Virus record (IMG/VR): IMGVR_UViG_3300042731_002780
Coordinates: 1 to 50,280 of that record
Length of the DNA: 50,280 nt
From: a virus
Reading direction: 5' to 3' (one strand)
The notes under the pieces were generated by a model. That model was not told the DNA's origin, did no database searches, and saw only the letters and a program-made list of their open reading frames with translations. The position numbers and the translations under genes were made by a program. Positions 2,740 through 44,300 of the stretch are shown one piece after another; the first letter of the stretch is position 1; every line of letters starts with the position of its first letter.

Positions 2740-4917
2740 CTATTCCTTGATAATTTTGATCTGCGAATAAACCTCAGTGTCCAGATTGGCAGCTTCACCA
2801 AAGCCATACGTTGCGCGGCTTGTATTGCATAGATGTTGTAATTCAAATGTTTTGGCTGCGGCAATCGTTGTTTTGCAATTAACGAATGATCGTGTTATGG
2901 CGTATGCAGCACCAGCAGCGGATTTTTCTGTTGACCCTATACCAGTGGTAGAAGTATCAGTTGTATTCTGAATGCGTGTTTGATGACCGCCAACTTGTTC
3001 TGCTGGCGCGTTTGCTTCAAACCGATATGTTCCCGCCAATAACCGTATTTCATTATTCGTGCTATCTGCTGCTACCGTTGCGATATTCGCTTGTGTACCG
3101 GTGTCCAGATTTTCAGATACAAATGTGCCTGTCTGACCATTAAGCCAGAGGTTGCCAGCGGCGTCTCCACCTGCCCAGGAACCCGATGTCAATTCCACGT
3201 CAAATACGGTTGCCGTTGCACCGCTCGTTGCACCTTCGATAGTATTGCCAGCGGCAATTTCTGCTGTACCGCCAGAGGTAAATGCTAACTTTGTAATCGA
3301 ACAAATGGAATATGTATCATAAACTTTTGTATTTAAGTCACGAGTACGCCATGCACCGGATGTAAATGTGCCACCAGCCGTGTTTTGGACTTTCTGGTCT
3401 TCGATATACGCGACTGATCCGATATTCGTTTTTACAGCCAATGTCGTGGGTACTGTTGAATCGGTTGCTGGTGTGAGAGTCGTATTGGTTTCAAAGCCGG
3501 ATACGATGTCACTGCCTAGCGTAATTTGTCCGGTTTCAATCCGGTCAGGTGTTACCTCGTATCCTGTGCCCGTGCGTGTGCCAGCGGGGGACTCGTTGCC
3601 AATTAACTTGATTGTGCCGCCTGTTCGCGTATAAACGCCATTGGTTAAAATGGTGTTGTAATTGATACGAATCGATCCATTAGCGATGTTAAAAGCCACT
3701 GTACTGGACGCACCGCCTGCATTGCTGATGCGCTTTACTGTGCCTGCGATAACACCACTTGCATGGTTGCAGTAAACGCCGTTGCAACTGGTGTCCAATA
3801 CGATATGTTTAATATCGACAATCCATTGACCCGACGCAGACAGTTGCAGCGCGTTGGTGGAGCTATCCGGCGTTATCCATCCAACCGTTGTGACGCTATT
3901 GTCGGCCCCGGTAATCGTGCCCTCCACTGTCGCCTCTGGCATGTACAGGTCAACATATGATTGACACGTCACATCTTCATCGTAATTTCCGGCGTCCAGA
4001 CACACGATACTGAACCGGTTATCTATCGCGGGTGTTTCAGCAGCCGTCAATATGTGCGCCTGTCCAATAGTGAGTACCGCATCATTCCAGGTCAGACCTG
4101 AATTGGCGTCGTTGCCGTGTTTGCCGATGTAATAAATTTGTACGCCGTCGGTACTGCTGCCTCCGCCGCCGTTGAGTAATTCCGGCGCATTATAGAGGTG
4201 TTCGTAACTAATGGCCGTCATGCCCGTGACCAACCGGAGCCACGTAATACGCCGCCGGTCAGTATCGCGCTGCGGGTAATATCCCGCGTCGAATGCCTGC
4301 TTGTGCGTCAATGTGGCCGGGAAGGCCGCGCCTTGTTTGTAGCTCAGAGTATCCGTTGTCGGGTCAATTTGGATACACACGCCAATGGCCGTTAACGGCG
4401 TCGTGGGTACATCAATGGCTACGGTATCCACATCAACCGGTGAGGTGGAGAAGTCCGCGCTTAACTGGTCACTACCCCGGTAAGCAGTATCCTCAACATC
4501 ATATAGCGCTCCCAACACCTGCACTTGCATCGAGGCGGGGTTGGTCGGTTGCGCGGTGCCATACATTAACTGAGACAGCAATACCGGTTGTTGGTCGTGC
4601 ATCACCGTACCGGCCCAAAACTTATCCCACATTTCCAGGTCTTTTGATGTGATGATATACCCGTTGACCACACGGCGCACCAGCACCGGCGCGTCATAGG
4701 TCAGCGCATCTTTGCCAAGATTGTTGATCGCGGTATAGGCGCTCTGTGGATCGCTGCCTAATCCGTGAATATAGACCAAACCATCCCGGTCAGTGTTGTC
4801 TACCAGGATAGCATGATCGACTGGGTTACCCACGCGCGCGGGTAGGTCTTCCGCTAATCGTGTGCCAAATGCACGTTGTAGACTTTCGCGGAACTGCGTA
4901 AATTCAGGCAATTTCAT
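2740..4917 (-). CDS. Tail fibre/spike with beta-helix start and C1q-like head
   Basis: 725 residues. The N-terminal third (1-245) would be the tail-attachment part. At about 258-285 the run YYIGKHGNDANSG followed by LTW and an AxLTIGQA segment is the typical opening of a right-handed beta-helix (pectin-lyase-like) domain, which continues to about 480. A Gly/Thr/Ala-rich module follows (about 545-610), then a C-terminal domain of about 110 residues ending in EVYSQIKIIKE that has the look of the trimeric jelly-roll (C1q/TNF-like) heads of phage fibres. The likely role is receptor binding, perhaps with polysaccharide binding or cleavage by the helix. It is preceded by a secreted-protein gene and followed by the lysis cassette. 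Confidence 0.75.
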   Translation of the reverse strand: MKLPEFTQFRESLQRAFGTRLAEDLPARVGNPVDHAILVDNTDRDGLVYIHGLGSDPQSAYTAINNLGKDALTYDAPVLVRRVVNGYIITSKDLEMWDKFWAGTVMHDQQPVLLSQLMYGTAQPTNPASMQVQVLGALYDVEDTAYRGSDQLSADFSTSPVDVDTVAIDVPTTPLTAIGVCIQIDPTTDTLSYKQGAAFPATLTHKQAFDAGYYPQRDTDRRRITWLRLVTGMTAISYEHLYNAPELLNGGGGSSTDGVQIYYIGKHGNDANSGLTWNDAVLTIGQAHILTAAETPAIDNRFSIVCLDAGNYDEDVTCQSYVDLYMPEATVEGTITGADNSVTTVGWITPDSSTNALQLSASGQWIVDIKHIVLDTSCNGVYCNHASGVIAGTVKRISNAGGASSTVAFNIANGSIRINYNTILTNGVYTRTGGTIKLIGNESPAGTRTGTGYEVTPDRIETGQITLGSDIVSGFETNTTLTPATDSTVPTTLAVKTNIGSVAYIEDQKVQNTAGGTFTSGAWRTRDLNTKVYDTYSICSITKLAFTSGGTAEIAAGNTIEGATSGATATVFDVELTSGSWAGGDAAGNLWLNGQTGTFVSENLDTGTQANIATVAADSTNNEIRLLAGTYRFEANAPAEQVGGHQTRIQNTTDTSTTGIGSTEKSAAGAAYAITRSFVNCKTTIAAAKTFELQHLCNTSRATYGFGEAANLDTEVYSQIKIIKE

Positions 4918-30028: not shown

Positions 30029-30058
30029 AAAAAAGCCCGACGCTGTCACCCGCCGGGC
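30029..30058 (-). terminator. Terminator of the replication arm
   Basis: On the minus strand GCCCG and CGGGC form a stem around a 14-base loop, followed by six T (30034-30029). It lies 70 bases after the Gp37/Gp68-type gene and closes the leftward operon. Confidence 0.75.
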
Positions 30059-30126
30059 CAACAGGGGTCTGCTACTCATCCGACCTCGGACGAATTGTAA
30101 AAGGCAATACCAGTCCCCTGGTCAAC

Positions 30127-36409: not shown

Positions 36410-36615
36410 TACCGCACCTCAGACATACTCAGACTAGCCATGCCGTTCTCATCCCAATGGCGCGTGTAGGTGACGTTTTCAGTAAAAATACGCACGTTGC
36501 CATCTGAGAATAATGCCCGGCAGCGGTAGGTAGTCACCCATCGGTTAGGAGACAAACTGCGATAAGCAATAGCCTTTTGCTCATAATAACGGGTCACGAA
36601 TGGTTTGGTGGTCAT
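36409..36615 (-). CDS. Small protein behind structured leader A
   Basis: 68 residues from the ATG at 36615 with AGGAG 8 bases upstream; a GTG three codons earlier is the alternative but lies too near the SD. Beta-rich and basic with many Thr/Tyr/Arg. It follows the structured RNA at 36637-36767 and would be made from its promoter if transcription passes the U-run. Function unknown. Confidence 0.6.
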   Translation of the reverse strand: MTTKPFVTRYYEQKAIAYRSLSPNRWVTTYRCRALFSDGNVRIFTENVTYTRHWDENGMASLSMSEVR

Positions 36616-36636: not shown

Positions 36637-36767
36637 AAAAAGCCCTTAAGGGTGGGTTGCACATTTCGACATATCGCGCAAGGAGAATATATCGAAAAGC
36701 CCACTCTGAAGGACTCTTTCCTCGCGCTTACCGGGCTGTGCAACCCGCGTCAGTTCTTATCCTGATG
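36637..36767 (-). ncRNA. Structured RNA A: candidate small RNA or leader
   Basis: Read on the minus strand from its promoter. A closing stem GGGTTGCACA/TGTGCAACCC (36746-36737 with 36663-36654, 10 pairs, no mismatch) encloses two arms: GCCC/GGGC (36736-36733 with 36702-36699) capped by an AGGA/TCCT hairpin, and TCGATATAT/ATATGTCGA (36695-36687 with 36674-36666, one G-U pair) whose 12-base loop shows UCUCCUU. The palindrome CCCTTAAGGG and five T (36652-36637) follow. This is a three-way junction of a type I do not recognise. It contains no convincing ORF. It could be an attenuator/leader for the 68-residue gene or a free small RNA. Confidence 0.55.
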
Positions 36768-36773
36768 CCCCCC

Positions 36774-36802
36774 ATTCTACACCCGACGGCCCGCGCTGTC
36801 AA
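36774..36802 (-). promoter_or_regulatory. Promoter of structured RNA A
   Basis: TTGACA (36802-36797), 17-base spacer, TAGAAT (36779-36774). The stretch around the -10 box, GGGTGTAGAATGGGGGGCA, is the same as in the promoter at 38173-38201. Confidence 0.75.
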
Positions 36803-37368: not shown

Positions 37369-37610
37369 GGCGTCTGATCCTCCACGCTCACTATCGCGGT
37401 TTGCATAATTACCAACTCTCGGCTATCGTACGCCCCTTCAGTAGTCACGTATCCGTACACCGCGAATTGCGGCATATCGCCATTAATAAGTTGTGAAATG
37501 AGCATATCGATAATAGCGCGGGCGACATTACGATCTAGCGAAACTTGGATGATAGTTCCATCTTCAACAGAGATTTCGTTGTGCAGGAAAAGGATTTTAT
37601 TCTCGTTCAT
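37365..37610 (-). CDS. Small acidic alpha/beta protein
   Basis: 81 residues, with CTATAGGAG upstream of the ATG. Beta-alpha-beta pattern (TIIQVSLDRNVARAIIDMLISQLING, FAVYGYVTTEGAYDSRELVIMQ). The general size and plan recall the small paralogues of the early region but similarity is weak. Function unknown. Confidence 0.55.
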   Translation of the reverse strand: MNENKILFLHNEISVEDGTIIQVSLDRNVARAIIDMLISQLINGDMPQFAVYGYVTTEGAYDSRELVIMQTAIVSVEDQTP

Positions 37611-37655
37611 TTGACTATCTCCTATAGACGCAAAAACCCCTACTTTCGTGTGCGG

Positions 37656-37985
37656 TCATGATTCAGTCTTTGAGATATACAGACGAACAGGGTTGCGACC
37701 AGCATAATCTAAGCGAGCAAAGCACTCCTGGCTTTCCTGTTTCATCCATTCGCTATCGAAAAAATCGCCCTTTTTGGCTTTCTCAATAGCAGCAATGCAG
37801 CGCTTCCAGTTTCGTTGTGCAGCTTCCATGCTGGTAAACGAAATCAACCATACGCGGTCGGACAGATAGAAACCTTCCATATCGATTGATACGACTCCTG
37901 GTACTTTGAGGAGTCGCTTGGCTTGCTCGTCTGGGGATGCGCTTGAATTAATCGGGTGTTCCATTACAACAGATCGCAGTTTCAT
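37656..37985 (-). CDS. Small protein behind structured RNA B
   Basis: 109 residues with AGAGGA upstream of the ATG. Alpha/beta (VSIDMEGFYLSDRVWLISFTSMEAAQRNWKRCIAAIEKAKKG), soluble. It follows the terminator-like end of RNA B, so read-through or another promoter is needed. Function unknown. Confidence 0.55.
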   Translation of the reverse strand: MKLRSVVMEHPINSSASPDEQAKRLLKVPGVVSIDMEGFYLSDRVWLISFTSMEAAQRNWKRCIAAIEKAKKGDFFDSEWMKQESQECFARLDYAGRNPVRLYISKTES

Positions 37986-38006
37986 TTCATTTTCCTCTGG
38001 GGATAC

Positions 38007-38166
38007 AAAAACCCCACTTCGTAAACGGGCGTCCGGGTTCTCAAGTTGGCTATCTCACATAGCCTTAACCGGAAAACCCGCCTACGAACTGGGGTCTTCA
38101 TATGAGATGCCTACTGCTTCGGTCTTGAGAAACCGGGGCGGCGAATTTGCGCCGTCACTTCAATTG
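38007..38166 (-). ncRNA. Structured RNA B: candidate small RNA with terminator
   Basis: Read on the minus strand from its promoter. Early hairpins are GGCG/CGCC and CGGT/ACCG. Then comes a long arm (38094-38012): CCCCAgTTCGTA pairs with the 3' side TACGAAgTGGGG, GCGGG with CCCGT, CCGG with CCGG, and the tip is GGCTAT/ATAGCC (38064-38059 with 38053-38048). The arm ends directly in TTTTT (38011-38007), the form of a rho-independent terminator. No ORF is convincing inside. It is either a free small RNA of about 160 bases or an attenuator for the gene at 37656-37985. No known family was recognised. Confidence 0.6.
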
Positions 38167-38172
38167 CCCCCC

Positions 38173-38201
38173 ATTCTACACCCCGTTGCGCCGGATGTCA
38201 A
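38173..38201 (-). promoter_or_regulatory. Promoter of structured RNA B
   Basis: TTGACA (38201-38196), 17-base spacer, TAGAAT (38178-38173). It overlaps the stop of the gene at 38198-38473. The -10 region repeats that of promoter A over about 18 bases, though the RNA bodies differ. Confidence 0.75.
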
Positions 38202-39651: not shown

Positions 39652-39670
39652 TCTAATTCCCTATAGAAAC

Positions 39671-39955
39671 TCACTTCTCCTCAACATTCACGTACATCCC
39701 GCCCGCATCCGTGCCATACCCCAGACTGCTATACCCGGCGTTCTCCACGTGTTTCTCGATGGTCGCCTGTATCCACGTCACCGGCGCGATACGCACCTGA
39801 TACCCGTCACCATGCCGGGATACCGTCCGCACCGTGAATTTGCCATGTACCGTCATCGCGTGGCGCACAGCTTCGAGGCGTTGCAGGTCGGCGTTAATGG
39901 CGTCGATGCGCTGCTGACGGAGTGCGGCCAGCTGTTCATAGTCGGTGTTGGTCAT
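39671..39955 (-). CDS. Small protein with helical start and beta domain
   Basis: 94 residues from the ATG at 39955 (MTNTDYEQLAALRQQR), ATGA-coupled to the upstream gene. Residues 1-35 form a coiled coil, the rest a small beta domain (FTVRTVSRHGDGYQVRIAPVTW). The stop is inside a 20-base sequence that recurs at 44272-44291. Function unknown. Confidence 0.55.
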   Translation of the reverse strand: MTNTDYEQLAALRQQRIDAINADLQRLEAVRHAMTVHGKFTVRTVSRHGDGYQVRIAPVTWIQATIEKHVENAGYSSLGYGTDAGGMYVNVEEK

Positions 39956-44266: not shown

Positions 44267-44300
44267 ATAGTGAGAAGTGAGTTTCTATAGGAGGTGAAAC

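Follow-up and report, generated by a model that had tools for sequence, protein, structure and literature searches.

Whether a short structured RNA that ends in a terminator directly ahead of a phage gene is a free small RNA or the leader of that gene is the question raised by a locus of IMGVR_UViG_3300042731_002780, a 50,280-base IMG/VR virus record that was analysed over its whole length (the window). The record encodes a terminase, a portal protein, a major head protein, and a tape measure protein, as well as a DnaD-like replication initiator, an RNase H, and a methylase. Since its terminase is 47–54% identical to terminases of Chloroflexota/Anaerolineae MAGs, the host is probably a member of the Chloroflexota, and the window probably represents a tailed phage of this phylum. 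On the minus strand, the locus occupies the interval between a small gene that ends at 38198 and the start, at 37985, of a gene for a 109-aa protein, within the leftward early region and upstream of the replication genes. Its RNA is called RNA B here.

RNA B is preceded by a promoter that matches the consensus at 11 of 12 positions (−35 TTGACA, 17 nt, −10 TAGAAT, then a GGGGGG run; 38173–38201, minus strand), and the 5′ start inferred from it gives a leader or small RNA of ~159 nt (38007–38165, minus strand). Nineteen bases of this promoter (38165–38183) are identical to the promoter region of a second structured RNA, RNA A (36766–36784); the shared core lies around the −10 element and takes in the G-rich stretch at the transcript start. 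The first-pass annotation, which had described an RNA of ~160 bases from a near-identical promoter and two small hairpins in it, is borne out in these respects: the hairpins are present at the 5′ end of the fold, at 38154–38139 and 38135–38120 (38120–38154, minus strand). The region as a whole (38005–38175, minus strand) folds with −75.7 kcal/mol (z −5.6).

The remainder of the minimum-energy fold is an interrupted arm of 91 nt (38008–38098, minus strand) with 37 pairs, including 5 G-U pairs, and consists of 9 bp, a 1×1 mismatch, 13 bp, a 2/1 loop, and a GGCUAU/AUAGCC apex. The arm had previously been described as 83 bases long with the same tip and a U5 end; tip and end are confirmed, and only the length has to be corrected. 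Its energy is −51.7 kcal/mol, compared with −24.8 ± 3.2 for shuffled sequences (z −8.5), and it is the strongest fold in the record, ranking first among 5,018 windows of 100 nt on both strands (z −6.1 after GC correction). The last pairs of the arm run into a U5 tract (38007–38011, minus strand), so that the arm (38098–38008) and U5 (38011–38007) show the arrangement of an intrinsic terminator, i.e. a GC-rich hairpin followed directly by a U tract, and would be expected to terminate transcription in vivo; among 335 T-tract sites, the closing hairpin at this U5 is the best (−51.2). The plus strand folds far less well (−38.4 versus −53.7 on the minus strand in a 100-nt window), among other reasons because of the G-U pairs, and a minus-strand RNA, rather than a DNA palindrome alone, fits best.

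Behind the terminator is an open reading frame for the 109-aa protein (37656–37985, minus strand), which has no Pfam match above the cut-off and no PHROG assignment. U5 is separated from its start codon by 21 nt that form the junction GTATCCCCAGAGGAAAATGAA before the ATG (37986–38006, minus strand) and contain a Shine–Dalgarno sequence, AGAGG (37998–37994). Because no promoter fits between U5 (38007) and the Shine–Dalgarno sequence, every transcript of this gene must cross U5. A U5–ATG spacing of 21 nt is found at three sites in the window, but a fixed spacing as a rule was discarded, since the spacings are 20 and 18 nt in the related phage described below.

This relative, L065 (18.7 kb of IMGVR_UViG_3300037297_000097), was recovered by a methylase search of viral_contigs and is colinear with the window (methylase, 72%, and helicase, 33% identical; replication initiator; and the gene at 25.4–25.8 kb, 75% identical). 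In L065, the gene that precedes RNA B has a homologue (48% amino acid identity), after which come two small genes, a promoter, an RNA, U5, a Shine–Dalgarno sequence, a gene, a second leader, and the replication genes. The promoter (TTGACA-16-TATACT; L065 3697–3724) lacks the 19-nt core common to the RNA A and RNA B promoters and precedes an RNA of ~134 nt, and U5 (L065 3860–3864) is followed by GTATCCCAGGAGGAAAAGTAATG and the gene. Lack of conserved pairing had been named beforehand as a finding that would speak against RNA B; the L065 RNA folds into the same arm, which is 94 nt long (12 bp to the U tract, a 1×1 mismatch, 17 bp, a 3/1 loop, and the apex; −45.8, z −7.1). The bodies of the two RNAs share 50% identity compared with 49 ± 3% in a shuffled null, i.e. 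no detectable sequence similarity, whereas identity reaches 91% in the GUGGG(G)UUUUU strand and 83% between U5 and the start codon (to L065 3865–3887, start codon included). The best conserved part of the locus, as judged from the one relative that carries it, is thus the junction from terminator to start codon (83–91%), part of which lies beyond the 3′ end of the RNA. Between the window and L065, structure and junction persist, but the sequence of the RNA body does not. No clear homology links the genes that follow the two leaders, and structure predictions of the downstream proteins (mean pLDDT, 48 and 71) are of too low confidence to be used.

A second set of pairings connects the 5′ segment of the leader with the arm. 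Its 5′ strand (38100–38136, minus strand) comprises blocks a1 (38136–38124) and a2 (38111–38100), the latter abutting the base of the arm, and the complementary 3′ strand (38034–38060, minus strand) lies in the arm apex and comprises a2′ (38060–38048) and a1′ (38045–38034). In the window, CCGGUUUCUCAAG...GGCAUCUCAUAU (38136–38100) is complementary to AUGUGAGAUAGCC..CUUGAGAACCCGG (38060–38033) of the apex; in L065, CUGGCAG...CGACGUGG (3747–3770) is complementary to CCCACGUCG..CUGCCAG (3811–3829), likewise in the apex, and the block order and topology are identical. Since the second block touches the first base of the arm in both phages (0–1 nt), the alternative pairing and the terminator would, on geometric grounds, be mutually exclusive. 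The same geometry rules out an H-type pseudoknot, in which 0–1 nt would have to span 9–29 bp. The feature that distinguishes an attenuator, an alternative pairing that excludes the terminator, is therefore present, with the exclusion deduced from geometry and a statistical signal that becomes weaker with looser segment borders, and both folds are kept in a single relative, L065.

With segment borders picked after the match had been seen, the alternative pairing reaches −29.9 in the window, compared with −13.2 ± 2.8 after shuffling of the 5′ segment (0 of 3,000 as good), and −28.0 in L065, compared with −15.0 ± 2.7 (1 of 3,000). Under one uniform border rule, the z-scores are −5.3 (window) and −2.7 (L065), and among 1,288 control hairpins, 0.2% reach −4 and 1.5% reach −3. 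Looser borders give 18 of 2,000 shuffles for the window (p about 0.01) and 1 of 2,000 for L065. In the total free energy of the growing window RNA, the gain from the alternative state is inside the shuffled range (38–211 of 500). When prefixes of increasing length are folded, the alternative state has the lowest energy at nt 100–125 in L065 and the lowest or near-lowest energy at approximately nt 112–136 in the window, with the arm taking over afterwards in both. The two-fold switch is, on these calculations, likely to be real. The finished arm is more stable than the alternative by 12–20 kcal/mol, which means that read-through needs help or fast kinetics. In addition, the G run in the 3′ part can pair with a C run located beyond U5 (GGGG/CCCC in the window and GGG/CCC in L065, i.e. 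in two sequences only); such pairing would occupy the 3′ strand of the arm in the read-through transcript.

Conservation of the junction past U5, together with the alternative pairing in both phages, points to conditional read-through, and we consider it probable that RNA B is a bistable transcription-attenuation leader, with the short RNA as its terminated product. What was computed directly is the match to the promoter consensus, the two folds and their occurrence in L065, the conserved terminator/Shine–Dalgarno junction, and the synteny; building on these, the alternative fold would act as an antiterminator. Transcripts would start at the strong host-type promoter in the leftward early region, the ~159-nt leader being made first. 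As the leader emerges, the 5′ blocks a1 and a2 would pair with the apical 3′ strand (a2′, a1′) and prevent the arm from closing at its base; with the final ~10–20 nt of the arm transcribed, the 91-nt arm with U5 would become far more stable and terminate transcription intrinsically, setting free a short stable RNA. The winning fold would thus set the outcome, either the ~159-nt RNA or a longer transcript that continues into the 109-aa gene and on into the following genes, and the balance between the folds would be set by some factor or by polymerase speed. RNA B would accordingly belong to a known kind of element, the attenuation leader; since the same design recurs, in a different sequence, in a virus that is only distantly related, RNA B is most likely a switch that controls gene expression, of a type already known in general terms. 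The locus offers a concrete testable case of RNA-level early-gene control in phages of a phylum from which very few have been studied.

The earlier proposal, a free small RNA, was drawn from the argument that transcription of the following gene would be blocked. In such a scheme, the RNA would act in trans, the arm being a very stable terminator, the downstream gene being expressed only by leakage, and the hairpins or arm loops pairing with transcripts or binding protein. The strong promoter of its own, the discrete predicted product of 159 nt, and the very stable arm agree with it, and products of attenuators can also act in trans (GraL, PMC6829880; IsrK, PMC4825925). However, the body is unconserved in L065 while the junction past the 3′ end is kept, the reverse of what a base-pairing small RNA needs, and an uninterrupted match or complement of RNA B longer than 10 nt is absent from the rest of the whole window. 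With all transcripts of the 37985 gene crossing U5, the junction 83% conserved, and a terminator-excluding pairing in both phages, the structured RNA, promoter, and terminator of that proposal stand, whereas its restriction to a free RNA appears unlikely. By analogy with GraL and IsrK, it is possible that the free RNA is a by-product of the attenuation leader or has a second role in trans. A specific form of such a role is very doubtful: terminated RNA B would use a1/a2 or its apical blocks to base-pair with leaders still being transcribed, from the same phage or from an incoming one, and so force termination. The outcome would be an RNA-based immunity under which early and replication genes stay silent; if true, it would resemble the CI RNA of P4, unrelated in sequence, in Chloroflexota phages.

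The lambda pR′–tR′ region consists of a constitutive promoter, a short terminated leader, and then genes, a layout that RNA B shares. A comparable gate, in which the leader terminator would stop transcripts until a phage or host factor modifies the polymerase near the promoter and the alternative fold would be incidental, could account for the 19-nt core with its G-rich start common to two promoters that are both followed by a leader and U5 before genes. Unlike the lambda system with its Q protein (described in PMC4825925), the window has no Q-like protein among the proteins tested, PHROGs names no antiterminator among the early proteins tested, and a NusG/LoaP-type protein is lacking (PF02357 is absent from the record), although a host factor may still act. 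The core is not kept in the L065 promoter, and the a/a′ pairing, a further difference from lambda, would be left unexplained in both phages; we regard such a gate as distinctly improbable. In phages, long interrupted arms located between genes are known to serve as sites of RNA processing, as in T7 early RNA. An ordinary insulating terminator or RNase III processing arm inside an operon, without regulation, would be in line with these T7 arms and with the capsid gene leader of a related phage, L011, which has a promoter, a long arm, and U6 without the alternative pairing, but an insulator would block its own promoter, which lies upstream of the terminator, and the alternative fold in two phages would again have no explanation, making this the least probable reading.

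Among known systems, the P4 leader (CI RNA, seqA/seqC) controls replication genes by premature termination (PMC4825925), and both it and the related IsrK of Gifsy-1 resemble RNA B in being phage RNAs made from a promoter ahead of the phage's own genes, with a terminator end, a read-through form, and alternative structures (PMC4825925), but RNA B has no Rfam match, and no separate CI-like antisense RNA was identified here. The E. coli greA leader contains an intrinsic terminator whose terminated product is the small RNA GraL, with approximately one-third of the transcripts reading through (PMC6829880); it is bacterial and unrelated, and only ~19 nt precede its terminator hairpin, leaving no comparable 5′ segment to pair with an arm apex. 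Two mutually exclusive folds, the second being an intrinsic terminator before a gene, are also typical of amino-acid and riboswitch attenuators, but RNA B has neither a leader peptide with a Shine–Dalgarno sequence nor, in the Rfam search, a known ligand domain. Such a peptide was not seen by eye in either leader, the window leader holding only a GTG frame of 15 codons without a convincing Shine–Dalgarno sequence, and leader-peptide attenuation was rejected for this reason. Termination is likewise affected by the ~70-nt put RNA of HK022, whose two stem-loops form immediately downstream of a phage early promoter, but put suppresses distant terminators (PMC9378689), whereas RNA B ends in its own terminator. 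At the gathering threshold, Rfam (including IsrK, C4, riboswitches, and leaders) gave no matches in the window, and none was meaningful at E-values up to 10.

Searches of viral_contigs with the 109-aa protein, the helicase, the replication initiator, and a 172-aa protein found no relatives, and the terminase search returned distant phages in viral_contigs and Anaerolineae MAGs. The exact arm apex sequence had one match in viral_contigs, judged to be due to chance, and the promoter pattern one unrelated 100-kb contig. A covariance model built from RNA B alone detected no convincing homologue in 396 Anaerolineae genomes and relatives; even the L065 RNA, searched alone without filters, scores only 14 bits. 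One covariance match, in L041, was rejected as a palindromic element found on both strands. In this prophage-like region of an Anaerolineae MAG (L041:17299–17431), the nested hairpins CCTCCGGTTCAAAACCGGAGG, AAGCCCGTAAACGGGCT / AGCCCGTTTACGGGCTT, GCGTGGGGTTTTGAACCCCACGC are present. In a scan of 553 kb of related phage DNA for a promoter (at least 10 of 12 positions), an arm (−40 or better), a tract of U5 or U6, and a gene start with a Shine–Dalgarno sequence, these features coincide only at RNA A, RNA B, the RNA B counterpart in L065, and the L011 capsid leader. In the last (L011:5890–6103), a promoter, TTGACA-17-TATTTT, precedes a 162-nt RNA (z −6.8) that has a long interrupted arm and U6 but lacks the alternative pairing.

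The sister element of RNA B (36637–36802, minus strand) combines the same promoter core (within the promoter at 36802–36774), the structured RNA A, U5, and a gene (ATG at 36615) before the replication genes. RNA A (36637–36768, minus strand) has a 10-bp closing helix and a long inner stem (z −4.9), with only a 3-bp hairpin directly before U5. At the same place, L065 carries a tRNA-like RNA with extra hairpins (L065:4137–4273), followed by U5, a Shine–Dalgarno sequence, and a gene; it scores 30.3 bits against the Rfam tRNA model (cut-off, 29) and was missed by ARAGORN. RNA A is unrelated to it in sequence, and the junction TTTTTAGTTTCT is common to both. At two positions before the replication genes, the leaders thus differ entirely in sequence, but the terminator and start-codon junction, and for RNA B also the fold, are retained, a warning that sequence searches miss leaders of this kind.

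A shorter look-alike of the 3′ end of RNA B, reported near 37640 and taken for a possible decayed copy, does exist (ACGAAAGTAGGGGTTTTTG; 37634–37652, minus strand), in the same register before its gene at 37610 (U5, 21 nt, ATG). Its hairpin (37652–37634) is no better than shuffles, its sequence match is of the quality that a random 47-mer would achieve by chance within the window, and no counterpart was seen in L065; it is weak and probably due to chance or a minor terminator, and descent from RNA B is not upheld. Elsewhere in the window, an identical 20-mer occurs on opposite strands near gene starts, at 39660–39679 (minus) and 44272–44291 (plus), around TTTCTATAGG, and represents an extended Shine–Dalgarno-like context. 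A likely operon border lies at 30060–29968 (minus strand), where the hairpin GCCCGGCGGGTGACAGCGTCGGGC, ending in T6 near 30030, is followed by a promoter, TTGACA-16-TATAAT, ahead of the late genes.
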